Made by a program: the position numbers and the translations under genes
Notes under the pieces: generated by a model
The model's input: only the letters and a program-made list of their open reading frames with translations
Databases searched by the model: none
What the model was told of the DNA's origin: nothing
Assembly: GCA_000467715.1 (NCBI GenBank)
Contig: AJFK01000227.1
Location: 1-64,000 of the forward strand
From: Hysterium pulicare CBS 123377
Lineage: Eukaryota; Ascomycota; Dothideomycetes; Hysteriales; Hysteriaceae
DNA length: 64,000 nt
Direction of reading: 5' to 3'
Shown here: positions 1,262 through 62,479 of the stretch, piece after piece
Layout: each line of letters opens with the position of its first letter
Numbering within the stretch: the stretch's first letter is position 1

Positions 1262-1537
1262 AACTAGAATGAAATATTGGTTAGATTAAAATGCTCCACT
1301 CGAACTCTTTCAACTTTTTAACCATAAAGCAACTCGGATGGATTGACGCCTTGCACTGCCACAGCGGCTTCTAGAACGTGCCGATTCATGATGGTTGCCT
1401 ACAATCACGTGCAAGGCTGAGACATCAGACCTCATGGATAACTTCGTCTTAGCTCTACGCTGCCATCTTGTCTCTCATAGTTTCTGCAAGAACCGAGCTA
1501 GTCAAACAATTATACACTTTTTTAGAAGCGTATCGCA

Positions 1538-3565
1538 ATGCCGTGGACGAAACTTTCTCTGCAGCTCCGGAAGATACCCACACCCCACTTCCTTCACAAA
1601 AATCGTATCCCAACCTCGCCACTCTGCCAAAATTGCCACAAAGTCTTTGAAGACGACAAAGGAGAAACAAAAACCACCTTAGCAACTATACAACGATCAA
1701 GGGACAAGGGCTGTTGTTTATGCTATCTTCTCTTATCACGCTGTGAGCCTCTTGTGTCGCAACCCCATAACTCAACTTGTTATATTTCTTGGTTTCTCTT
1801 TGATGGGAGATGTGTACTAGTAGAAGGAAAAAATCGTCAAACTATGGGGACACTTCGTCTGAGCTATGTTGATCGTTGTAAGTTCAGCAGATTGATTTCA
1901 TACTCTGAAAGGTGGCTACGAAATAAAAGTATTGCTGAAGGGGGGATCGAGCCGTCGATCATCACATCTAAGACCATCAATACCGCCCAAACATGGGCTA
2001 TTGCTCGAGAGTGGCTAAATAGTTGCACCACGACACACGATTGCGCGCACGCACAGGAGAAACTGCCGAAAGAGCATTGCCCAATGAGAGTCCTGGACGT
2101 AGGGCATCTTGGAGAGTCGCACATCAGGTTGTGCATTGATCCTTCGCCTGCCAGTAGTCGTTATGCCACACTGTCTCATCGCTGGGGATCGATTAAACCT
2201 CCACAGCTGACACTGGCCAGCTTCTCCAAGTTGCGGGAGGGGATCCGAGTTTCTGATCTGCCCAGAACATTTCGAGATGCTATAGAAGCGGCCCGCCAGC
2301 TTGGCTTGAAATACTTGTGGATCGATTCTCTTTGTATCATACAAGACTCGCAAGAGGATTGGGCTACACAAAGTGCACTTATGGGTCAAATCTACCAGAA
2401 CTGCTACTGCAATCTCGCTGCAGCCGGATCGACCAACTGTGATGACGGGCTTTTTTTCAGCAGAGACTTAAGGAACATACAACTACTTGAAGTTAGTGTT
2501 GAAGGTCATCATCGACGCTCTGGCACTTATATAGCAGAGGATCACTTCGACTTCCATGTCAACTCAATGGAACTCAATTCACGTGCATGGGTATTCCAGG
2601 AGCGTATCTTGTCTCCACGCATACTCCACTTCTCTAGAGAGCAATTGTTTTGGGAGTGTTCAACCCACATAGCTTGCGAATCTCTACCGAATCCATGGAA
2701 GACGGATGGAGGGCCGCTGCTGCTAGATGATGATTGGATAGATTCGCAGAACAAGAACTTTACGAATAAAATCAAAGGCCTGAAGCAATCTATGATAAAA
2801 CGCCCGAAACGATCAGAAAAGTATCGAACTGAAGCTTACAAATGCTGGTACAAGATCGTTGAATCGTATTCGGCGCTGGTTATGACTCAAGAAGAGGATA
2901 AATTGGTTGCCATATCCGGAATTGCAAGAAAGACATGCGAAGTAGTATCTGACGAATACTTGGCAGGTTTGTGGAAAGCTGACCTGGCACGGGGCCTGCT
3001 GTGGATGAGAAGATCGCCACTCGCAGCTGACGACACACATCCGGTTCATTGGCGAGCGCCTTCATGGAGTTGGGCCTGTACAAATACCCAATGCGATTTT
3101 CTTCGACCATCTAAACACAAGTCGCAGTTGAACAATATCGAAGTGCTTGGCACAGTTGTTGAGAGTCAAAGCGGGGATGCTATGGGTCAACTTCAGAGAT
3201 GCGAGCTGAAATTGAGAGCGAGATTGTTTGAAGTTTACTCTGCAGCACCGGAAAATGACAGCGTCTCCGAAAGGGTGAAAATGAAAACTCGTATTGGGGA
3301 GATAGTCAAAGGAGGTCAGGTTTTGATATGTTACGACGCCTATGACCCACAATTCGACACATGTCTGTGGATGCCCGTTCTCTCCGAAGACTGGGGAGAG
3401 GATCGTGGTATATATGGACTGATTCTAGAACCAGTTAGCGGCACTCAACGCTTCCGCAGAATTGGCCTTGCTTGGATCAGGACTTTCAGAGCCGGCCAAA
3501 CTACGTCGTGGCTCCTCACATTAGATCTACTTGACGACAAGATCCAAACTTTTACCCTCATTTAG
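1538..3565 (+). CDS. HET-domain (heterokaryon incompatibility-like) protein
   Basis: This single-exon gene encodes 675 residues. The HET core begins near residue 209 with YATLSHRWG, the first conserved block. It continues with LPRTFRDAIEAARQLG and then YLWIDSLCIIQD around residues 241-271. The N-terminal 200 residues carry the usual Cys-rich lead-in (LCQNCHKVF, then GCCLCYLL) seen in many HET proteins. HET domains are related to TIR-like folds and can trigger cell death on non-self recognition in Podospora and Neurospora. Most family members, including this one, have no known partner. The chosen ATG follows a short upstream region; an earlier exon cannot be excluded. No STAND or repeat domain follows, so any sensor would be the C-terminal half or another protein. 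Confidence 0.9.
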   Translation: MPWTKLSLQLRKIPTPHFLHKNRIPTSPLCQNCHKVFEDDKGETKTTLATIQRSRDKGCCLCYLLLSRCEPLVSQPHNSTCYISWFLFDGRCVLVEGKNRQTMGTLRLSYVDRCKFSRLISYSERWLRNKSIAEGGIEPSIITSKTINTAQTWAIAREWLNSCTTTHDCAHAQEKLPKEHCPMRVLDVGHLGESHIRLCIDPSPASSRYATLSHRWGSIKPPQLTLASFSKLREGIRVSDLPRTFRDAIEAARQLGLKYLWIDSLCIIQDSQEDWATQSALMGQIYQNCYCNLAAAGSTNCDDGLFFSRDLRNIQLLEVSVEGHHRRSGTYIAEDHFDFHVNSMELNSRAWVFQERILSPRILHFSREQLFWECSTHIACESLPNPWKTDGGPLLLDDDWIDSQNKNFTNKIKGLKQSMIKRPKRSEKYRTEAYKCWYKIVESYSALVMTQEEDKLVAISGIARKTCEVVSDEYLAGLWKADLARGLLWMRRSPLAADDTHPVHWRAPSWSWACTNTQCDFLRPSKHKSQLNNIEVLGTVVESQSGDAMGQLQRCELKLRARLFEVYSAAPENDSVSERVKMKTRIGEIVKGGQVLICYDAYDPQFDTCLWMPVLSEDWGEDRGIYGLILEPVSGTQRFRRIGLAWIRTFRAGQTTSWLLTLDLLDDKIQTFTLI

Positions 3566-5881: not shown

Positions 5882-7433
5882 TCATCTCCGCGACGACTTC
5901 AATCTCACACTCCTGCGTAAACTAGGCTCCCTCAATTTCTTCAGTTTCTCCCCGTGTCGACGAATGATATCCGCTATATCATGCTGCCCGGCATCTACTG
6001 CGGCATCGATAGCCATCTTGTAGGGCTCGACACCTTCCTTAAGTAACAGCTTCACCATTGACTCAAGGCCGAGTCTTGCGGCTACCTGAAGAGCTTTGCC
6101 GCCTGTTCCTTTGGTATGCAGCTTTGCACCTCTTTCTTTCAGAAGGTAAAACAGTGAGGTATGTTCCAACACGATGGCGCATATAATAGGCCGGAAGTAA
6201 GCGTTGGAGCATCCCCGCCGATCAGCTCCAGAGTTCCAACAGATGTTAACATCGGCACCGAGGTCTAGTAGCAACTGCGTGATTTTCAGGTACCCCTGGC
6301 CAATACTTAAGGACAGAAGCCGGTTCATGCTGTTCTTGAAAACGGTAAAATGCGCGAGCAAGAGCTTCACTACTTCGTAATGGCCAGAACGAATGGCGTC
6401 CATCATGATTTCAATCGTTTCTAGACAACAGGGCAGAAGACCAAAACTCTTTAGCTTTTCCAGAGTACTGCGAACCAAAGCCAGGTTTCCCTGGTGTATA
6501 GCAGCCCTGAAGAGCATGGGGCCGGCGTCATGCCAACATCCAAGATGTTGTTCTATGATATTCTCCAGGGTGTTAATGCTCTCAGTACTAGCTGACTCTG
6601 CTCCAAAGTCCAATTTGGTTATCTGCGCTTTTATCCAAGCGCCTCTTCGGGTCAGCGACGGAATCATGTCGAGGAGGCGTAGATGACCTCCCTGGAGAAT
6701 GCCCTGTATCGCTCTTTGGATCCTTTCTTCCAAAACCCCCTCGTTACAGGATAAGAAGATCTTTAGAATCTCTCTGTTTCCTTGTAACGCGGCCGCATGG
6801 ATCGGGTCGCCAAATAGCAGACTTTCCATCATGGCCAGTGTACTGCTCGGACGGTGAAGATGCTTCACAATTGATTCGCAGTTTGTGTATGCAGCAGCGG
6901 ATAGAAGTTCTTTTTCAACGCTAATGTCCATGCCCTCTGTGTTGCACAACCTTCGTACGGTTCCCAGTGTTGTCTGGTTTACAATCAGATGGCATAGAGC
7001 CTCTACGTATGCTCGCTTCGTCGCTTCGTCTGACCTTCGAGTTGCTCGGCAAAGTCCTTCTGCAATCCGCCGGACATATACAAGTTGGGAACTAATCGCT
7101 GACCGACTACTCGTAGGGTTTTTCTTTTCCGTGAGGACTCTGAACACCAAATACGGATGCCAGAATGTTTTGCTACGGTACGTCGTATTGATATCGTCTA
7201 GCTCTGGTAGGCGGGACTTGTATATAGCTTGGATGACCTCATTGTCGAATTGTTCTGGAAGGAATTCAATTCGTAAGCTCAACGAATCCTAGAGTTTATG
7301 ATAGGCACTAAGTCAAAAAAGCCTTACTGCTCACGAGTCTGAGCCTTAATGCTCTCGGCAATCCCCTCTGGTGGACAGTATACAGTAAGATCTCATGGAT
7401 GAGTTCAGATGGTAGATCGGATAGACCCATCAT
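5882..7433 (-). CDS. F-box-like/ankyrin-repeat protein, paralogue A
   Basis: Two exons, complement(join(5882..7254,7328..7433)), encode 492 residues. The 73-bp intron (GTAAGG..TTCCAG) was placed by comparison with paralogue B. It joins LRLRLVS to KQFDNEVIQAIY, just as B reads LRLRLVS then KLFDCEVLEAIY. The N-terminus, LPSELIHEILLYTV, is an F-box-like helix. The C-terminal half contains degenerate ankyrin repeats, for example GHYEVVKLLLAHF, GYLKITQLLLDLGADVNI and GLESMVKLLLKEGVEP. Such proteins often act as substrate adaptors or scaffolds; this is inferred from domains only. It lies head-to-head with paralogue B, 577 bp apart. Either of two adjacent ATGs (7433 or 7430) could start it. Confidence 0.85.
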
Positions 7434-8010
7434 CTAGGTTCAAAAAGATCCCAATGGTTGTATGAGGTGGATGCTGATTAATAGATTCTCTTGACGCTAG
7501 CCAAACCAGGAGGGATACCAACGATTTAAGGAGTACGGCCCGAAGAAAGATTACGCGGCTTCAAACTTGTGCGAGAGAGGTTGATGAATGTTTCAAGCAC
7601 GGCTCGAGAAATGCGATAACTTGTTACAAAGGTGGGCGAAGAGTTTGTTTTCCACCGTGGGTGTTACATGTGCCAATCCAGGTATAGCGTTATTCTGGGA
7701 CGCTAAGCCCATCTAGGCTTAGATGCTGAGCCTTCGCATTTACATCCATCTGCCTCACATCTCCCATACACCACCTGCATCTTTTTCACTACCATATTGG
7801 GGTCTACAAGATCTTTACGCTTCCTCGACGCCGCATCCGTGGCATCGTTTTCACCTCCGTAGCTAGAAAGTAGACCCAAACCTTGCAGGTCGACGGTTTC
7901 GTAGGCTTCTGTCCCAGGCACCCATCACATTTCTTGAATCCGCACCAAAGTCTTCTTGCTCATCAGGCGGTTTCTGATTTTTCTTTCATTTGTCGAATTC
8001 CTGCTATAAT
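7434..8010. promoter_or_regulatory. Divergent intergenic region between ankyrin paralogues
   Basis: This 577-bp gap separates the start codons of two divergently transcribed paralogues, so it must contain both promoters. A 72-codon antisense frame (7703-7921) has no recognised domain and is treated as chance. Confidence 0.4.
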
Positions 8011-9561
8011 ATGTTTACTCCAGATCTGCCGCTGGAGATTCTTCGAAAAATTCTCGGATATGCGGTAGTGGCTCGTGGGTTGGCGCGCGCTCTTAGATTG
8101 AGGCTGGTTAGCAGTACGTCTCTATTCTAGGGTTTGCCATTTATTGTTATTCTCTGGGGCCATTTCTGATTCGTCTCTATAGAATTGTTCGACTGTGAAG
8201 TCCTAGAGGCCATATATGATTCTTTCCTTCCCGAAAAGGCTTCTGCCCTCCGTACTGATGGCGATCGCTTCTGGCAATCATGTTTTACATACAGAGCTCT
8301 CGCCGGAGGATCTGCGCCCAGATTTACTAGCACAGGCTTGGCGGTCATTCGGCGAACCGCGGATATGGTCTGTCAACAAAGCGGCTCCCTCGACGAGTAT
8401 AGCCGCAAGTCGGTAGTAAAAGACCTTTGTTATTGGCCAAGGGCTAGAATTGACGATATCTGGTTCGAAACCGATGGCCAAGAATGCTATAACGAGTTCA
8501 GTTATCGGAAGCAATTGCTAGGCGCATCCGCTTACTCGAATTGCGTCGATGTCGTGCAACGCATCATGGCAATGCAGGACAATCCAAATGATTTGCTAGG
8601 TGGTGATCTGGTCTTGGGTTGTCCGGCGTTCGTAGCTGCATTTCGAGGGAACAAGGCAATTGTTGAAATCTTCTTATCAAGCCACTTCGGGGACTTGCAG
8701 GAAAAGAGAACTAGAGCCGTCGAAGGTGCAATCGCCGGAGGCCACTTGGACATCCTGGAAATGGTACTACATCCCCGTTGGGGTCCGCTCCGTCTTGGTA
8801 TCAAACGTTCTGCGATCTTAAACATATACATGAGATTTGGCTTCCCCAGTAACAGTACGGACCTTCCCTCGCAAATTGTTAACTTACCCCGACTGTGCTC
8901 TCCATCGTTTCATGACTGGACGCCAGATGAGCTACTGAGTCTGGCGACTTTGGATGGTCATTTGGCTTTAGCCAAATGTATGCTGGACAAGGGGGCCTAC
9001 ATTAACCTGCATTCAAGCATAGATCCGCTCGTGACGGCTGCCAAAAAGGGGCATTACGAAATTGTCGAATTGCTACTCAAGAGAGGTGCCGATCCGAATG
9101 TTGGGGATGGAAGTCCGCTAAGGTGGGCCGCAGGCCTTGGCTATCTTCAAATAGTCAGAACTCTTCTCGATCATGGCGCCAATATCGATCAAAGGTCTTA
9201 CTGTCATCATTATAGCGGGAAATATCATTGCTGCAAATGGCAAGCTCCGATAGTTTGCGCAATATTAGGTGAACACACACCTATCTTTAATCTGTTGAAA
9301 AAACGAGGCGCAATTTTGCACGCACCGGAAACAGGTGGCGAAGCACTTTGTAGTGCTGCTTTTCACGGATTGGAGTCCATGGTCAGATTGCTGATAAAGA
9401 AAGGGGTAAGTGTTGACCGTACTCATATCCACATCGCTGCGGATCGTGGACACAATAGTATCGCGGACCTGCTGAGTCAGCATCTTGAAGCTTGTTCGGA
9501 ATCTAGGTCCAATTTCAAGTTAAGCAACCTAAGGAAACTTTTTGTCTGTATTAGGCTTTAG
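8011..9561 (+). CDS. F-box-like/ankyrin-repeat protein, paralogue B
   Basis: Two exons, join(8011..8113,8183..9561), encode 493 residues. The 69-bp intron (GTACGT..CTATAG) interrupts the phrase LRLRLVS|KLFDCEVLEAIY, at the same place and phase as in paralogue A. The N-terminus TPDLPLEILRKILGYAV is F-box-like. The C-terminal half has clear ankyrin units: GHLALAKCMLDKGAYINL, GHYEIVELLLKRGADPNV, GYLQIVRTLLDHGANID, then two to three weaker ones. A segment with several Cys and His (CHHYSGKYHCC) lies inside the array and is absent from A. Length and intron are conserved between A and B although the sequences are well diverged, so the duplication is old. Role inferred: adaptor or scaffold. Confidence 0.88.
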
Positions 9562-38411: not shown

Positions 38412-40350
38412 TCAAGGCCCTGCTCCGCCTCGATGAGTATATTCGTAGTCCTGTTGCAGAGGGACAACCACTCCTTCATAAAACTTCTCTCTCAACTCAA
38501 CATCTTGCAAATCGCTTCTAAAGGTATCAAAATTACATCGTATGCACCGCAGTACAGCCTTTGCAAAATTGGGCAGCTCCCGGTTTTGGACCTCGTCAGC
38601 CAGTCTCGTAGCGATTGAGATTTCAGTCATGCTGTCCTCCAGGCCTTCGTCATTAAGATCGTCAGGAAGTTTGTGCGAAAGTAGTGGGCGTCCCCAAGAT
38701 AGCTCAAGAAGGGCGATGCCTAGGGCAAAGATGACGTCATTCTTGACCAGACGTCGACGTCTGGGTGCTGTAGAGGGCCCTGGCGATGAGGCAAAGGTAC
38801 GGGATACATATGTGTAGGACAACAAGTTCATTCCAGAGTGACTTCTTAATATAATTATATCGTTTGTGTCCCAGGCTTTGCGAAGCCACGGGGTATCATG
38901 CAGTTGCAACACAGCGGATGCAAGGGTCAAAGCCAGGAAGCATCTAATCATGTCAGCTTACATTCATTCTCGGGTTTTCAACAATATCGTACTTCTCCTT
39001 TATTGGAAGGGCCACATTGCTCTGCCCGCATATAATATCTCTTAAAGAAGCGGCATCCTTGATTTGATTTTTGTTGCCCGGTCCTGGGACTGAATAGACA
39101 TGATGTTGCCAAAGTTGATCTTCGAGAAAGCCCAGACAGTATTTTGACTGATGACTGCGTATGAGGCTGTTGCAGAGGTCGTCTATTTTTGGAATCAAAG
39201 ACGATGCTTTGCGAGGAGCATGGGGGCCAGATGAAGATCCAGAAACAGTAATGGCTGGAGGGAAATGTACTGTTTTCCTGTGGGTGTACGCTTGAGGTAT
39301 AGCGGGTGTCGTTCCTCTAGCTCTTCGTTAGTCAATGAGATAAGATTGATCATCGCGTGTTTGTGTACATACCGGGCTCCAGGAGTCTGTGATGTTTCGA
39401 TCTCAACGTCGCGCCAATCCCAAGGTAGACTAGCTGGCGCACAGGCGTTCTTCTCGAATGTGAACAGGAATGCAAACCGCACTGCGTCCTCCTCTTCTTC
39501 TGCTGTAAGAGCCTCTCGAATTTCCAGCCGTAAGTTGGCCTTGTGAGGGAACTGGCAGTGGCATGGATGCAATCTGGAGCTGAGGCTCTCAAAGAGTCTT
39601 GCGGCCTGGTCTCGGATGTTCTTCCAATATGCTGAATGTAAGCGCATCCTTTTCTCCGTGCGAATTGGCTCTAGTTTGATGGCACTTGATGTTAGTTTTG
39701 AGATTTTGTCGATATCTAAGTCTATTTCGCCGAGAAGTTTCGCGTACTTGTGCGAGTCAAACCCGCCCTTGATCCTAGTCCAAGCACTGTTGAAGAACTT
39801 CTTGCGAGACCTTTCGTCCGGATTGCCATCTGCCCCAATCCACGGCGCCTGATAGTCATTATTGATAAATGCGCGACATCATTCATTGGGGTATCCTAAA
39901 ATACCTTGAGGTCTTTGGTCAACTGTAACTTCTTGCAGAATAGGATGATCCTCCTGTTGAGCTTGTCTATTAAAGACAAGTAAACTCCACAACTGCCACC
40001 GAGACGTTTCTTGAGATCTTCGTGAAGCCGAGGATCTTGCCAGGCTGTGGTGTCTCGCTTTTCGAGAAGATCATTCATCCGATCATCCGGAAGATTCAGC
40101 GGACTAAGCAGCATATAGCAAGAATGCAAATAGATCCCTACTGACGCCGCAAAAGAGGTATGAATATCACTGAACACATATTCGTAGCCTTTCATGTTCT
40201 TAAGAACCGTAATCTATAGTGCAATGATCAGCTCTCAGCCTCGTGCCTCAACACAATGGCAACACTCACTCCTTCCGAATAATGCTCTAGGGCGCTAATA
40301 ATCAATGGAATGGACCCAAGTACAACACCTGCAACCTCAAAGCCGCTCAT
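38412..40350 (-). CDS. DUF7580-type protein (fungal non-self/cell-death related family)
   Basis: Five exons, complement(join(38412..38943,38993..39316,39373..39848,39905..40213,40270..40350)), encode 573 residues. Introns are 56, 56, 56 and 49 bp, with GTGAGT, GTATTT, GTATGT and GTACGA donors and good branch points. The N-terminus SGFEVAGVVLGSIPLIISAL is the hydrophobic lead helix found in HeLo-like and DUF7580 proteins. The C-terminal half has family marks: SLIPKIDDLCNSL, CLGFLEDQLWQHHVY, LALTLASAVLQLHDTPWL, and NDVIFALGIALLELSWGRPL, which resembles the tail of a protein kinase fold without its catalytic motifs. It lies head-to-head with the large fusion gene, start codons 213 bp apart. Role inferred from family: signalling or cell-death switch. 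Confidence 0.87.
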
Positions 40351-40563
40351 TGTGGCATAGAAAAGTCTGTTGATAACTATGGGCGGAGATAATGGATCAG
40401 AGAATCTATGTGGAGGTGGGACTTTCAGCTTTCTTTTCTTTTTTTAGATCGCTTCACGTGCATCCTCAGCCTTGCGCTTACTTTTCTGTCGATCCCCACC
40501 TCGTCATCGAATCCATGGTGCTGGCATCCTTCTAGCTGTTTAGCTGGAACTCACGTTACGGTC
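40351..40563. promoter_or_regulatory. Short bidirectional promoter between DUF7580 and fusion gene
   Basis: Only 213 bp separate the two divergent start codons, so regulatory DNA is almost certainly shared. A CACGTG E-box-like hexamer lies near 40456 (TTCACGTGCATC). No TATA box was seen. Confidence 0.5.
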
Positions 40564-43500
40564 ATGACTATCCCCATCTCCGAAGCTCATCTAAACTGCT
40601 TTTTGGCCTTTAGCGAGTTAGTCGACGTTATCCAACGTCCGATCCGCGACTTTGGTGACCAGATCCCATTACAACGAATCCAAAACGAGTTCGACAGATA
40701 CAAGCTCTGGGCTGGAAATGTTGGCGCCGCTCATTCGGGGAAGCGATATGAGATCTCCTTAGATTACCGGCTGAGGGAGGCATCATTTTACAAATTGCAG
40801 GTATGAAGGAAGCGGCCGTGTCAGACTTTCGTAATGATATGCCTAATCGACCACAATGATTGTGATTTGCTTTTGCTACGTTGTCAATATCAGAACTTTA
40901 TGTGAACGACTACTTGGAGGTCTGTTAATGGCTATGTCGTCTTCTAGCATCGCGTTCTCAAGCTCAAACGGTGTACGCGGATAGGAAGGAGAGCCATTGC
41001 GAGAATGATGCGCAGCCTAGAATCCATCGAGTTTTTATACGCAGTATGGTCCTTTGGGCTAATGCTTCAATAATTTAGGTCCTCCATCTAATTCAGACAC
41101 TGGAAGGAAGGGTGAGAGCTAGTTTTTTACTCTGCTGTGGTTTACTCCTAAACGTCGCCATTGTAGCCACAACTAAGCTCTTTTGCAATCACATTTTTGT
41201 TACTTGATATGTTCAAATGCTAACATTGTCTCTAGATTAGGGAAGGTATGCTATATTCCGTCGGCTTGATGCTCGATATGCCCAATGACTATTCCAGCAA
41301 TTTCCCTCATTAGAGGTGAAAGACGGCCGTTCGAAGAGGATATATCCACGGACGAGGCCTCTCGAAACATCTCTAGTACCTCTGTTTCTGAATCTGGCGA
41401 ACCGGAAGATTCAGAAGATTCGCCCTGGGAAATATCCTCAGAATCCAGCCATGGCAATAATCCTTCCATGGAGCCCCAATCTGGCCAAAGTTCAGCAGAC
41501 CGTAGGGCTACGGAAATTGGCAGAACTATGACGGACGGACCTCCAAAATCAGAACTCGGTTTGAACGTAGGCAAGACGCCAAATCTAGAGATGCCATACA
41601 TTGTGAGCTCCATAGCCTTCACAATCACCTACTTGTTTAAGATACCTATTCGAAAACCAGCACCGCTTGACCGAATCAAAAACAAGGCATTGCTTGAAAT
41701 GGCGGGTTACCAGCATTTTGATGTTCTATATGTGATGGACAAATTCCCTTCTTTGGATCACGAAGTGGCAACACGCTTAGGTAAAATGATAACGCGCCGC
41801 CGACAAATCCTTAAATATCGACAATCCCATGGGAGTAATCTCGAGACCTCCAAGTTCGAGCCTGGAATAGATCAGCCGTACACACCGAAAGGAAAGGCCC
41901 CAGCTTTTGACCAGAATGAGGTCAATGCCACAACTTTTTCTAGGAGCGAAGCGGCGCCAAGCCTTACAGCAAGTAGTCATTTTACCCTAAGGTCAAAAGC
42001 TACCACTCTACGACCGTCGAATATGGGAGTGGAGGAGAGTGTGGAATTAATTGACTTTTATCCCCAATCTGTTGCCGACTCCCAGACATCAATCGCTTCG
42101 AGTTATGCGGAAAGGGATCTCGTTGTCGACGTCCCTCCTAGGCCTAAGGGAGATGATGGACAAGAGCTAGACAGTTTTGTATGTCCTTATTGTCTGGTTA
42201 CTCAATATATAAGTTCTTCTCACAAGTGGAAGTAAGTCTCATACCTACTTCGAGCCTTTGTATATCATTAACACCCCCAGAAAACATGTCTTTGAAGACT
42301 TACGGCCTTACGTGTGTACTTTTCCGGAATGCGACATGTTTGATACCTTATTTGAAAGCCGAAACGAATGGTCCAAGCATGAAATGCAATTTCATAGATC
42401 GAAATGGTTTTGCAATGTCATAGGTCACCCGGAATATGACACCCAAGAAACCTTCCTACGTCATATGGAATCGCAGCACGACACGCGCCTCGTTCATGAT
42501 AAGCTCTCTATATTCCAAGACTTGTTCCGGAAACATTCGCGGGCGGTTGATGGACAATGCAACCTCTGCAAGAAAGTTTCCTCCAAACTCATTAACCATG
42601 TCTCCCGACATTTACAGCAGATGGCTCTTTTTGCTCTTCCTAGAGTGAATGAGACCGACGAAAGTGAAAAGGCTGAAATACGCACTCGCTCCTGTGGAGA
42701 GAGAAGCGAGAAAATTTCACCTCCAATAGAGACACAAGAACCTCTCGATGCTTCCAGCAGCCAATCGAGTTTGTCAAGCCCTACTACTGGGTCGCAAGAG
42801 ATGGGTCGAGATATGCCAGATGTATCAGGATTATCTGATCTCGATGAGGACATTGAACGGGAGGGGGTTCCCGACTCCTTAGATCAGAATTGGGACAGGG
42901 TTACAGACAAATTCATCCAAGCCAGAGAAGAGATCATGCACTCTACTAAACCTAAGTCTCCCAACGACGGCGCAATCTCGGAGACGGGAGGGCGTCTTTC
43001 CCCAGTTCTATTGCAATCTTCGCCCAAGAAAGTCGTTGCTGGTGCACCATGGGCGTTAATCGCCGTGATGGGTGTGACAAGAGCAGGGAAAAGCACCTTC
43101 ATACGTACTGCAAGCGGAGATTCTAGCGTGGAAATCGGGAATGCTTTGGAATCTTGTAAGAACAACTTTGATCTTGCCATATGTTCGAAGCTGACTTGGT
43201 TCGGAAGTCAATTCTAAGTTAAATGAAAACAAGTTTCATTATAGCGGTTTCAATGTTAACCTTATCGACAGTCCTAGCTTTAAGGACACTTCTAAGAGCG
43301 AGACAGAGGTTCTCATTGATATTGCGGCATGGTTGAAAGAATTATATGTGAACAATGTGAAGCTGAATGGTGTTATCTATGTTCACAACATAGACAACGA
43401 CCGTATCACAGGTTCAGCGCTCCGCAGTCTGAAATTTTTTCGGGAGCTTTGTGGGCCAGAGGCATTCAAAAACATCGTATTGGTGACCTCATTCTGGGAC

Positions 43501-45655
43501 AAGGTAGATCAATCGACAGGAGAAATGCGTGAAGAACAGTTAAGAAGTACGCCAGAGTTCTGGGGAAACATGATCAGCGGAGGCTCCAGGATTGCAAGAT
43601 TCTCAGGAGATCGAGCATCCGCATTATCCATAGTATCAACTCTAATTAACCAGCCGGCGGTTACACTCTCAATCCAACACGAGCTAGTGGAAGAAAGGAA
43701 GGTTTTGGTCGAGACCGCAGCTGGAATCGTGATCAACGAGGAGCTAGAGCGCCTTACTACTGCACATAGAAATGAGCTAGCGGAACTTGAGAAAGAAATG
43801 CTTCATGCAATGCATGAAAAAGATATGGAACTTCAGGCTCTGCTAGAAACCCAACGGCAGAGATATGAACATGAGTTGGATAGTATACAGAGACAACAAG
43901 GGAAGCTAAGAACCGAACGGAGTGTAGATCATAAGGATTTGAAGACAGGACCCGGCGAAGTTGTAGAGACTTCAAACTTTATCTCTTTAGGTCACCAAAC
44001 CAGTGGTTCGTTGTCAACTCCCCCGGTCCTGTCAGGATCGGTGTCAGTGGCAACTGCGAATAAAGAGGAGCGCGAGGCAGAACAAGCCGCAAGATTTCTG
44101 GAAAATGACGTGCCAAGTGTACTTATGGAAGAGGTGATTAAGGACAGCGAGAGCGGAGTTGGGATGAGGAATTCTCTACCAATTCACAGCTCGAGCGTAC
44201 CGGATCAGAGGGTCTATTCCAACCCTAAACTTATCGTGGGGGTTGATTTTGGTACGACATTTACAGGTATGTGCGATCATCAAAGTCCTCATGGTCGAAA
44301 ACCAAAACTGATGTGATGACAGGGGTAAGCTATATCCCTCTCAATGCGAAGACCGTCCGCATAATCGACTCCTGGCCTGGTTCTGGTAGGGAGATGGAGC
44401 GAGTGTGGAAGGTACCCTCACGAATCGCCTACGCCGAAGAGAATGAGGGCTGTACCACGACTCAAATAGGATATCAAGTTAGGCCAGGAATGAAATCCTA
44501 CTCATGGTTCAAACTAAGGCTGGACCGGGACGTCGTGACGCCCTTCGACCATCCATTGCTCACGAAAGTCGAAGGACTGGGGATTATGAGGCTACCCAAC
44601 GGGAAGACAGCTCAAGCAGTCTGTGCGGATTTTCTCCGAGAGGTCTACAAACATCTGTTAGATACTCTCAATCTCAGAGACATCACGGAGGATATCATAC
44701 GTATCACGCCCATGGAGTTTTGGTTCACTGTTCCGGCAATCTGGTCCGATACGGCGAAGCAAGATTTTGTGGCGGCTGCAAGAACTGCCGGCTTTGCCTC
44801 AAGGCCTATCGATTCGATCAATTTAATTCCAGAACCCGAAGCAGCAGTTATTGCTACCCTTCAGACACTAACAACTGGTGGCTCCGAAGACCAGATATCG
44901 GTATGTACAACGTTGTCGCAAACAACTACGTCTGCTAATAACTCAACCAAAGCCAGGTGATGCCGTACTTGTTTGTGACTGTGGAGGCGGCACGGTCGAC
45001 ATTACCACTTATACCGTCCGAGCCATATCCCCGCAACTAAAGTTCGACGAGTTGTTAGAAGGGGCAGGCGACATGTGTGGGTCTACGTACATTGACCGCG
45101 GATTCCACGAGTGGATGTCGAACCATTTTGGCCGCGCCTTCGATGATTTGCCTTTTGAAAAGAAAGGACCCGGAAGCCGTTTCATGAGGGATTTCGAGAG
45201 CTTAAAGCGAGATTTTGACTCCAGTAACGATCCGAATGCAGAGTATGATCTTCCTTTAGTAATGCGGGATGCGGAAGACTCTGAATACTTCGATGATACC
45301 GAACAACTAGTCAAACTCTACGCCGTGGATCTTGAAACCCTTTTTAGGCCGGTTGTGGGAAGGATATTACACTTATTGCGGCAACAAAACGAGTACGTCA
45401 GGATTAAGAGGGGACAACAAATAAATAAGATCATTCTGGTAGGTGGCTTTGGTGACTCCAAATACCTCAAAGATGAGGTTAGGGCTTGGGCCAATGCTCA
45501 AGGGGGTATCAAAGTTTTGTGTCCGGAGAATCCGTAAGTCATCCCCTGTTCCTGCCCCATCTTCATGTTCGTGGGCTAATGAGCTTGCTAGGCAAGGAGC
45601 AATTGTCATGGGTGCTGCTTTACGAGGCTCTTTAGTGTCTAATTCTTCTTTGTAG
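40564..45655 (+). CDS. C2H2 zinc finger / P-loop GTPase / HSPA12-like Hsp70 fusion protein
   Basis: Nine exons, join(40564..40800,41079..41111,41236..41245,41298..42231,42281..43155,43208..44266,44323..44900,44953..45533,45592..45655), encode 1456 residues with every phase matching. Residues 1-380 are the N-terminal module known from fungal C2H2 proteins (FDRYKLWAGNVGAAHSG, SLDYRLREASF, IPIRKPAPLDR, DKFPSLDHEVATRLG). Residues 387-525 hold the zinc-finger cassette (FVCPYC, KKHVFEDLRPYVCTFPEC, HVSRHLQQMALFALP). A P-loop GTPase starts near 668 (AVMGVTRAGKST), with DSPSF near 717 in place of DxPG and TSFWDK near 791. A coiled coil follows (about 874-930). From 1038 comes an Hsp70-type ATPase: VGVDFGTTFTGV, VCDCGGGTVD, LVGGFGDSKYL. 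The Hsp70 substrate-binding domain is absent. Zinc finger and GTPase share one exon, and GTPase and Hsp70 start share another, so the fusion is real in the DNA. Confidence 0.88.
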
Positions 45656-59299: not shown

Positions 59300-60756
59300 A
59301 TGCATGACTCGCTTTTCCCGATAGATTTCTCCCAAGATCACCATGTCATGGTCACAACACACCCTGCAGATGAAGCTGCTTGCAGTGGCGTTGCTGAGCT
59401 TGACATCGTTTCGAGAAGAGGCCGGCTTGTGCCCTTGAAGACGAAGGACGAGCTTCGAGCTGCATTCGAGACGAGTGAGAGATCTCCTTGGCAAAGAATG
59501 TGCCTCTCTAACCTACCGCTTAGTTGAGGTGTATGTCGTTGGGGTTCCAGCAAGATATGCCGGGGCTCTGCTGAAGTGAGTCTTCTTCAGTATTTCCAAC
59601 GCCCGCAAATTGACAAACAGCTCCCAGTGTTGTTCGTGACACAATCCCAGACCTAAAGACTGTCAATATCCAGCATCTTCGTCGCGTTGTACAGACCCAA
59701 TTCCTTCCCGAGCATCTGCAACAACGATTCAATACTTGCGAAGAGCTGTGGAATGCTCTTTCGACCTCACAGAGTCCTGTCAATGACGGCCAAGGTGCAC
59801 CCATTTCAGACGATACTACGGTCGAGATACGATATCTTCTGATCTCACCGACTTCGCTCATACCATACTCGAAGCTCCTAGAGGTTCTGGGCCAGAACCC
59901 TCCTTTTACTGAACTTAGTGTTGGACCTAAAGTCTTGGCCGTTCCAGTACCTGCGCTTGCACCCACGTCTGCTGATCAAGCCGCACAATGGTCACAAGAC
60001 TATTGGCCGATCTCGTACAAGAATACCAATCCCTATGGCCCACATCCTAGCCTTGTGGCTCGCAATACACGCGACATTGAACCCACCACCGGCACATGGC
60101 TTTCCCTTGCCGAAGAAGCTGGGGCACAAGTATCCGCCTTGCGGCTAGGAGATAACGTGGGCTGCGTGGTTGTGGATAAGACTGGGAGTGAGGAGCGGAT
60201 CATCGCAGTGGCTGGAGATGCACGTTGGTGTTTGCCAGACGGGAACTTTACATCAGAACGAGGGGGTCCGGGAAATGTTATGGCACATGCTGTCATTCGA
60301 GCTATCGCAATGATAGCAAACAAACGGTTGAAAGCTACAGACGTAGAAGTAACATCCGGATCTGCATCGGGTAACACTGACGAGACATCCTCGCGTGTCT
60401 TCTGCGATGGCCCGTTGACGACCATTGAAAGACGGTTCTACGACTTGGACAACATCCTCCCCAATGGATATCTCTGCGTCGATTTAGACATATACATAAC
60501 GCATGAACCCTGCATCATGTGTTGCATGGCAATTCTGCATTCCCGCTTTCGGAGATGCGTCTTTGGTCGAAGGATGCCACTGACTGGCGGTTTGACGGCA
60601 GAGATGAACACAACACCTGGCGATTCGCCTGCCGGCCTCGGATGTGGCATTTTCTGGCGTCCGTCTGAACTCAATTGGAAGTTTCTCGCATGGGAATGGG
60701 TGGCTGAGGGAGAGGAGGACTCCAGTTTAGGAACACAAGATACCCTTCAAGCTTAG
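59300..60756 (+). CDS. TAD3: tRNA adenosine deaminase subunit Tad3 (ADAT3)
   Basis: Three exons, join(59300..59474,59524..59575,59628..60756), encode 451 residues. Introns are 49 and 52 bp and phases fit. The N-terminal part reads GRLVPLKTKDELRAAFETIE, VYVVGVPARYAGALL and VVRDTIPDLKTVNIQHLRRV, as in fungal Tad3. The C-terminal deaminase domain has HAVIRAI (near 295), where catalytic Glu of HAE is replaced by Val, and PCIMCCMAILHSR (near 369), the second zinc-binding block. The substitution is normal for Tad3, the non-catalytic partner of Tad2. The dimer makes inosine at tRNA position 34, in nucleus and cytosol. The start may instead be a later Met (MVTTHPADEA). Confidence 0.94.
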
Positions 60757-60957
60757 TAAATAGGCAAACAAAGTTGAATCGCACCCACTCATACATACAT
60801 GTAGCTATACCACTACATGGATGCAAGGCGCTTATGTGCACCAATGAAAAATGTGAAATTAGTGAATCACGTGCACACGAGATTTCATTTCGCGCGTCAA
60901 CTTCAATCTCCAACTTCGGTCCAACATCCCCGTCAACAAAATCGCAACAACACCACC

Positions 60958-62479
60958 ATGCTACCAGACGAAATCCTGGCAACACTCAATGATGATTTCC
61001 CTTGCAGAGAAACCCAAATTCGGCAGCTCTCCGCATTATACTCGGTACAACTCCCCGTACAATTTCTGCGCCGAAACATCAACTAACACTTGCCAGCCGC
61101 ATCTCCCAAGTCCGCCAATAGCAATAGTTCACGGCCTCGATGCGACAGGAAAGACCTCGGTCGTGAAAGGCGCCTTGAAAGCGATTGAAATACAACATTG
61201 CATCGTCAATTCGCGCGAATGCATCACCGGACGCCATCTCCTCGAACGCACCGTATTCAGCGTTCTCGACGCGCTAGATCTATATTACGATGAAAGAATT
61301 GATCGAAGACCATACAACAGGTGTGAGAATATTAGTGCACTCGCAGTGCATCTGCAGCGAATGCTAGAAGGCAGAGAGAGATTCGTAATCGTGTTCGATG
61401 GGATAGACAGACAGCGAGAAGCGCCGGCGACGTTGTTACCTGCGTTGGCAAGGTTTGGGGAAATTGTAAGTCGTTTGAAACTTCTTTTCATCATATCAAG
61501 TAGTTATGATATTAACAGACACGCGGTACAGATCCCGAATCTCTCCCTTCTCCTAATAACTACCCTCCCACATCCGAACTCCTTCCACCACCCTGGCCTT
61601 CCATACCTTCACTTCCCGCAATATACTCGCAGCGAAACCATTCACGTCCTCTCCCGTAACCCTCCAAACATCTTTCTCACGCCACCCGACCCCGAAAAAT
61701 ACCCCGATTACACCTCAGACCTAATAGCAGAGGACAACGAGTGGGTGTGGACACGCTTCCTAACCGCTATATGGGACTCCATAGGCAAATACGCCGCTCG
61801 AGATCTCATAAGCTTCCGAAGCCTCGCAATCCGCCTATGGCGTCCCTTCGTCGCGCCAATCGTAGACGGAACATTCGGCACACGAGATTTCTCCCGTCTA
61901 ATAGTCCACCGACGCGTTCTATTCCAGAGCGAAGACGCCCTAATCGATCGCGTAGTGTCACGCACCCCCAACCTAGCTCAAGGAAAGCCAGAAACTACAT
62001 TAACAAAGAAGAAAGAAAGTGTCAAAGAGCATGAGCTCCCCTACTACTCCAAATACCTCCTCTGCGCCGCCTACCTCGCCTCTTACAACCCCTCCCGCAC
62101 CGACCCCCTCTACTTCATGAAAACCAGCGACAAGCGCCGTCCCCGCCGTAAAAACACTACCGGAGCCAACCGCATAAACTCTAAATCCTCGCGGCGGATC
62201 CCGCGGCATCTGCTTTCCCCGTCCCCGTTTCCCCTCGATCGTCTTCTGGCGATTTTTAGAGCTATAGTGGATGGACCCGTGCCGCAGGCTGCGGATTTGT
62301 ATACGCAGATTGCGACGTTGACTAGTCTGCGGTTGCTGGTTAGGGCGGGGGTTGCGGGAGCGGATGTGCTGGATCCGGGGTGCAAGTGGAAGGTCGGGTT
62401 TGGGTGGGAGTGGATTCAGAGAGTGGGGAGGGGGGTGGGGTTCGAGATGGGGGAATTTACTGCTGGGGGGATGGAGTAG
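60958..62479 (+). CDS. ORC5: Origin recognition complex subunit 5
   Basis: Three exons, join(60958..61044,61097..61465,61532..62479), encode 467 residues. The second intron is 66 bp and free of stops, so the uncut frame also reads through; I infer it because GTAAGT..GTACAG removes an odd insert and gives ARFGEI|IPNLSLLLI as in relatives. An AAA+ domain begins with FPCRETQIRQLSALY and PSPPIAIVHGLDATGKTS (Walker A, residues about 42-50). FVIVFDGIDR (Walker B, near 124) follows. YLHFPQYTRSETIHVL and YYSKYLLCAAYLASYNPSRTD, then the Lys/Arg-rich stretch KRRPRRKN, are ORC5 features. The product loads MCM at replication origins in the nucleus. A MITE copy begins 20 bp after the stop codon. Confidence 0.95.

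Follow-up and report, generated by a model that had tools for sequence, protein, structure and literature searches.

One gene of Hysterium pulicare CBS 123377 joins an N-terminal module with C2H2-type zinc fingers, a GIMAP/AIG1-type G domain, a charged and probably coiled-coil stretch and an Hsp70 ATPase domain in one open frame. It lies at 40564-45655 on the plus strand of the window, by which we mean the whole 64,000-nucleotide stretch analysed (C180:1-64000), and the fusion is present in the DNA itself rather than being an annotation merger. The Hsp70 part we take to be HSPA12-like; this label comes from the initial annotation of the window, and the similarity found here is to Hsp70 in general. 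All comparisons were made with paralogues in the same genome, searched as 37.2 Mb in 596 contigs, and with Pfam, NCBIfam, PADLOC and PDB. The introns, a HET gene and the gene families fit a filamentous fungus.

The gene model and its single frame

The nine exons add up to 4371 nt, that is 1456 codons and a TAG with zero internal stops, and all eight introns start with GT and end with AG. They are laid out as follows, the least certain being exons 2 and 3.

40564..40800, plus strand: exon 1, residues 1-79, start of the N-terminal module; matches a paralogue
41079..41111, plus strand: exon 2, 33 nt, 11 codons; less certain
41236..41245, plus strand: exon 3, 10 nt; less certain
41298..42231, plus strand: exon 4, remaining N-terminal module, a low-complexity stretch and the first zinc finger; has relatives in the same genome
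42281..43155, plus strand: exon 5, more C2H2-type fingers, a linker and the P-loop
43208..44266, plus strand: exon 6, a single open frame with G3, G4, the coiled coil, a linker and the first Hsp70 motif
43756..43908, plus strand: charged, probably coiled-coil stretch within exon 6, read from the sequence without a coiled-coil program
44323..44900, plus strand: exon 7
44953..45533, plus strand: exon 8, phosphate-2 and adenosine motifs
45592..45655, plus strand: exon 9, connect-2 motif, eight further residues and the stop

The fusion is not an annotation merger, as the frame is free of stops, its linkers would rarely be open by chance and some of its introns are common to paralogues. The linker between the fingers and the G domain (42649-43038) stays open in 0.3% of 2000 dinucleotide shuffles and that between the coiled coil and the Hsp70 part (43909-44220) in 0.8% of 2000, while the open frame around exon 6 runs for 373 codons. 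Three of the eight introns are shared with paralogues. One of them, which separates the P-loop from G2 (phase 1, 43156-43207), has the identical place and phase in five of five GTPase paralogues, whose splice models are our own, and its distance to G3 is equal in the fusion and the closest of them; the other two, one following DFGTTFTG and one inside CPENP, are common to the fusion and the nearest HSPA12-like gene. Intron 44901-44952 is without a counterpart in that gene, though both of its flanks align. A ten-exon model was dropped, since the nine-exon one fits the paralogue at C180:68-69 kb better by eye.

The nine in-phase exons of the initial annotation, with 1456 codons and no stop, were thus reproduced exactly on recomputation, and its placing of zinc-finger sequence and P-loop (43071-43097) together in exon 5 was borne out. 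It had also assigned the GTPase and the coiled coil to exon 6, along with the first Hsp70 motif, and this is accurate save for the last codon of that motif, which is split by the intron. Could the locus nevertheless give two or more transcripts, for example by starting internally ahead of the Hsp70 part, with little or no fused protein made? The linker leading to the Hsp70 domain does contain an in-frame ATG, and the paralogues are separate genes; however, there is no stop between the parts, so that a message through the GTPase reads on into the Hsp70 part unless it is spliced or ended early, and we consider this explanation very unlikely.

The G domain and the Hsp70 ATPase domain

By its sequence relationships the G domain probably belongs with the GIMAP/AIG1/Toc34 group, in line with the AIG1-like assignment first proposed for it. 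A profile of five family members, the fusion included, finds GIMAP4 (E 7.9e-11), GIMAP7 (E 4e-9), GIMAP5, Toc34 and septins, with Der/EngA GTPases interspersed among these matches. In Pfam at E 0.01, AIG1 and MMR_HSR1 are matched by all five members; for the fusion itself AIG1 (E 7.4e-5, 22.6 bits) falls below its cut-off of 27, and MMR_HSR1 (24.4 bits) exceeds its cut-off of 21.9. NCBIfam gave weak matches for this part, and a PDB search with the single sequence gave weak matches headed by a designed repeat protein. Three different queries returned the same eight G-domain loci, namely the fusion, C550, C104:66.7 kb, C551:69 kb, C551:71 kb, C22 and the pieces at C296 and C104:14 kb. The domain and its altered sites are as follows.

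43050..43755, plus strand: GIMAP/AIG1-type G domain, about residues 656-879, containing intron 43156-43207; switch residues altered
43071..43097, plus strand: P-loop GVTRAGKST, Arg against Gly in five of five paralogues
43149..43221, plus strand, across the intron: G2 region ESFNSKL, Asn against Thr in five of five paralogue models
43261..43281, plus strand: G3 region LIDSPSF, Ser against Gly in seven of seven other copies, pieces included

When the six spliced members were aligned, 32 positions were invariant in the other five and the fusion deviated at 4 of them, the fourth change being one Glu to Gln. Treated in the same way against the remaining five, the other members deviate at 1/29, 2/30, 5/33, 7/35 and 11/39 positions, a leave-one-out test which is blind for them at the three switch columns of the fusion, where Gly, Thr and Gly are by definition present in all five. 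A hydrophobic C-terminal stretch is found in three of the four standalone GTPases measured and is missing at the matching place in the fusion. We take the three altered switch residues to be equivalent to Ras Gly13, Thr35 and Gly60, and we presume that the P-loop site of a known Gly-to-Arg change in G-alpha subunits is a neighbouring position, not the same one. That G-alpha change is reported to block the active conformation while hydrolysis continues (PMC3285607), and septins are reported to have repeatedly lost GTPase activity with the assembly face retained (PMC10731463). Because the fusion copy alone has lost the switch residues of G1, G2 and G3, its G domain is probably a pseudo-GTPase, and the view that it acts as a nucleotide-driven sensor, as was initially suggested, is not supported.

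The Hsp70 part presents a different picture, and the claim of an Hsp70 ATPase domain with kept motifs stands.

44230..45655, plus strand: HSPA12-like Hsp70 ATPase domain, residues 1038-1456, with three introns and without the C-terminal region

It matches Pfam HSP70 with E 3.2e-9 (36 bits, cut-off 20.6), and the PDB matches listed are DnaK, Hsc70 and other Hsp70s; in NCBIfam, matches of the DnaK/HscA type all stayed under their cut-offs. The nucleotide motifs were located and are conserved. Four paralogues (a set made partly from raw BLAST translations, with one member incomplete) share 58 invariant positions; the fusion deviates at just 3 of them, and none of these lies in a nucleotide motif. 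The ATPase half of the fusion looks capable of a nucleotide cycle, unlike the G half. The stop (45653-45655) comes eight residues past connect-2, whereas the nearest Hsp70-type paralogue continues for about 165 residues in two exons, as joined by us, its tail opening with an RRHYG-like stretch that recurs with variation in other members. Compared with the paralogue tails, the 648 bases after the stop hold no significant trace of a remnant; a decayed tail that seemed plausible by eye was rejected, since 21-51% of 300 shuffles equalled it across four paralogue tails. The gene had been described as intact, and this is right for its open frame and not for its Hsp70 part, which lacks the end found in its relatives.

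Is the gene then at an early stage of decay, a functionless chance fusion of duplicated parts that is losing its Hsp70 tail and its GTPase residues? The missing tail and the three lost switch residues speak for this, as does a related joint in contig C104, described below, which is plainly decayed. However, all 1456 codons are open without a stop or frameshift, the 4 of 32 changes in the G domain fall among the 1 to 11 of the other members and the Hsp70 part has hardly diverged at its invariant positions, so that we find early decay possible and rather unlikely.

Unfused relatives, the zinc-finger module and neighbouring genes

Nine unfused Hsp70-type loci were found in the genome, with a further weak one at C202. 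The G domain has its nearest relative on C550 (52-58% identical) and that of the Hsp70 part is found in pieces at the end of C550 and the start of C551 (49-61% identical), so that within the genome the nearest relatives of the two halves are two separate genes. Since the Hsp70-type gene runs off both contig ends, we infer that C550 and C551 adjoin; the GTPase and Hsp70-type genes then stand head to head, their start codons separated by about 2.7 kb. Another head-to-head pair of this kind lies at C104:64-67 kb. Under a uniform model with nine Hsp70-type and five or six GTPase loci, two pairs within 5 kb would arise by chance with a probability of 5.8e-5 or 8.7e-5, figures which lose some force through the 5 kb limit having been fixed after the pairs were seen.

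A third locus is a relic at C104:14 kb (L017:1288-2109), where one frame holds G3 and about 70 residues that share 68% identity with the C104 GTPase and then enters a 21-residue Hsp70 phosphate-2 motif, after which similarity ends. The phosphate-2 match, from a search of 14 sequences, has an E of about 1e-6. We read this frame as what may be a second, decayed GTPase-Hsp70 joint. From the head-to-head pairs and the joined frames it follows that the GTPase and the Hsp70-type ATPase may work together.

Other features of these loci were also noted. The relic frame is followed by an ORF (open reading frame) with other C2H2-like fingers. Coiled-coil ORFs (L045:3742-5251) lie between the C550 GTPase and its Hsp70-type gene, and the main one matches nothing else in the genome; a conserved third coiled-coil gene beside both pairs was rejected, as the C550 and C104 proteins are without significant mutual similarity. 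At C551:65-74 kb two family GTPases stand on opposite strands with their matched parts about 1.4 kb apart, and the family searches of the genome gave no Hsp70-type match near them.

The C2H2 finger pattern of the fusion was recognized by eye. A genome search with part of the zinc-finger module returned at least 20 matched stretches, of which two are in the window gene, two in a gene 27 kb away and at least 16 on 13 other contigs. ORFs from seven of these 13 contigs were scanned with Pfam, and four of the seven gave no match. At C454 (around 131640-132371) the module is followed by an AAA_16/NB-ARC-like region with DUF7779 (DUF7779 83.5 bits; AAA_16 33.3 bits, cut-off 32.6). The window module matches the C454 ORF with a BLASTP E of 2e-21 and an ORF on C402 with 3e-20; the query for these two comparisons, for the Pfam search of the N-terminal piece and for the exon-1 paralogue match carried 32 extra residues from the superseded ten-exon model. 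The N-terminal/C2H2 module is thus a movable front end, and in at least one case, at C454, it lies before a STAND-type region. Around C402:121184-121561 the C2H2 module precedes a Macro domain (Pfam E 5.6e-20), and on C175 a DUF676 match lies under the cut-off.

The fusion protein itself gave no Pfam match to NB-ARC or NACHT up to E 1. The analogy to STAND proteins drawn in the initial annotation gains some ground from the shared module at C454. The protein might instead be an integrated decoy, in which dead GTPase and HSPA12-like copies on an NLR-type zinc-finger front end bait attackers of the real pair. A G domain that has degenerated and an Hsp70 part that is shortened, beside intact standalone paralogues, would suit such a role, as would the C2H2 module before a STAND-type region, and decoys of this kind have been proposed for fungal NLRs in a passage of PMC12258605. 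However, pure bait would not need the ATPase motifs which are kept, neither NB-ARC nor NACHT accompanies the bait and no attacker is known; a decoy is in our opinion unlikely.

Several genes near the fusion or elsewhere in the window were also noted. A DUF7580 gene, whose ORFs match in Pfam with E 4.8e-20 and 0.005, lies on the minus strand at 38412-40443 and faces the fusion gene head to head, with probable start codons about 0.2 kb apart, and the opening of this gene, MSGFEVAGVVLGSIPLIISALEHY, presumably resembles HeLo-like sequences. The stretches 1526-3565 and 5882-9561 contain a HET-domain gene (E 3.3e-33) together with a pair of ankyrin-repeat ORFs on opposite strands. At 59614-62479 a deaminase-family ORF adjoins a co-directional ORC5 ORF, an arrangement which looks ordinary.

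Proposed role and comparison with known systems

What might such a protein do? Our preferred explanation, held at a little under even confidence, is a functional-looking, NLR-like modular protein with a built-in GTPase/HSPA12 pair. According to this proposal, the G domain, without GTP switching, would still use its G face and the coiled coil to pair with an active paralogue, for instance the C550 GTPase, and so serve as a docking part. The Hsp70 ATPase domain would be the working nucleotide switch and, being tail-less, could act as an ATP-dependent clamp or regulator of assembly rather than as a chaperone. The C2H2 module would be the sensor or output end, as perhaps in the STAND-type protein which shares it, and the whole protein would be NLR-like in action, with the GTPase/HSPA12 pair replacing the usual engine. 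Beside the late choice of the 5 kb limit, several points weigh against this proposal. The switch-residue losses and the missing tail fit early decay equally well, both gene pairs may descend from one, and four of the six unfused GTPase loci have no HSPA12 neighbour. Pfam found no HSP70 in the relic frame and no family in the zinc-finger part of the fusion, and the NB-ARC score at C454 (22.5 bits) is just under its cut-off of 23.5. The proposal is, moreover, drawn from the DNA of one genome.

A broader idea, which we regard as doubtful, is that in fungi GIMAP-type GTPases act together with HSPA12-type Hsp70s as a two-nucleotide signalling pair not yet described, by analogy the eukaryotic counterpart in logic of predicted bacterial GTPase/HSP70 conflict systems; the fusion would then lock the pair into one NLR-like protein with the GTPase docking and the Hsp70 ATPase switching. 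We know of no partner assigned to HSPA12-like or GIMAP-like proteins in fungi. The two head-to-head pairs, the fusion and the relic joint, all within a single genome, speak for a functional link between GTPase and Hsp70, and if the NLR-like action is true, this would be an immune-type architecture without the STAND engine, in which an Hsp70 ATPase domain serves as signalling switch. Among the open-licence literature matches listed, there was no description of a C2H2/GTPase/HSPA12 protein or of GTPase/HSPA12 gene pairs; the text of a survey of Ascomycota Hsp70s does not mention HSPA12 (PMC3879978), and a survey of fungal NLR effectors does not mention Hsp70, zinc or GTPase (PMC9815663). PADLOC returned a single weak match, LeoBC (E 0.009), which we judged meaningless.

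How does the fusion compare with systems already described? It resembles GIMAP/AIG1/Toc34 proteins in its family-profile and Pfam matches, and its standalone relatives also in their hydrophobic end, but its own AIG1 score is under the cut-off, its switch residues are changed and zinc-finger and Hsp70 parts are attached. With HSPA12-like Hsp70s, of which the nine unfused relatives are examples, it shares an ATPase domain with the expected motifs, and it differs in its early stop and in the position of this domain downstream of a G domain. The likeness to fungal zinc-finger NLRs lies in the module which precedes the STAND-type region at C454. In Sordariales, however, the 34 NLRs reported to have C2H2 fingers carry them mostly at the C-terminus (PMC12258605), and the fusion is without their NB-ARC or NACHT. 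Septin pseudoGTPases, as described in the account cited above, are alike in having lost GTPase activity and kept an assembly face, although they are another family than the fusion G domain (PMC10731463).

The closest precedent in logic, by analogy, is provided by the GTPase-centric conflict systems predicted in bacteria. In these, TRAFAC GTPases occur with zinc ribbons, HSP70 is linked in about 14% of GAP1-N2 neighbourhoods and some of the HSP70 domains are without the peptide-binding part (PMC7159879). No DO-GTPase names appeared among the Pfam matches of the fusion, the coverage of such models in Pfam being unchecked and GAP1 not having been searched. Unlike the fusion, these bacterial systems are made up of separate genes and include GAP1, FNIII-repeat and GrpE components (PMC7159879).

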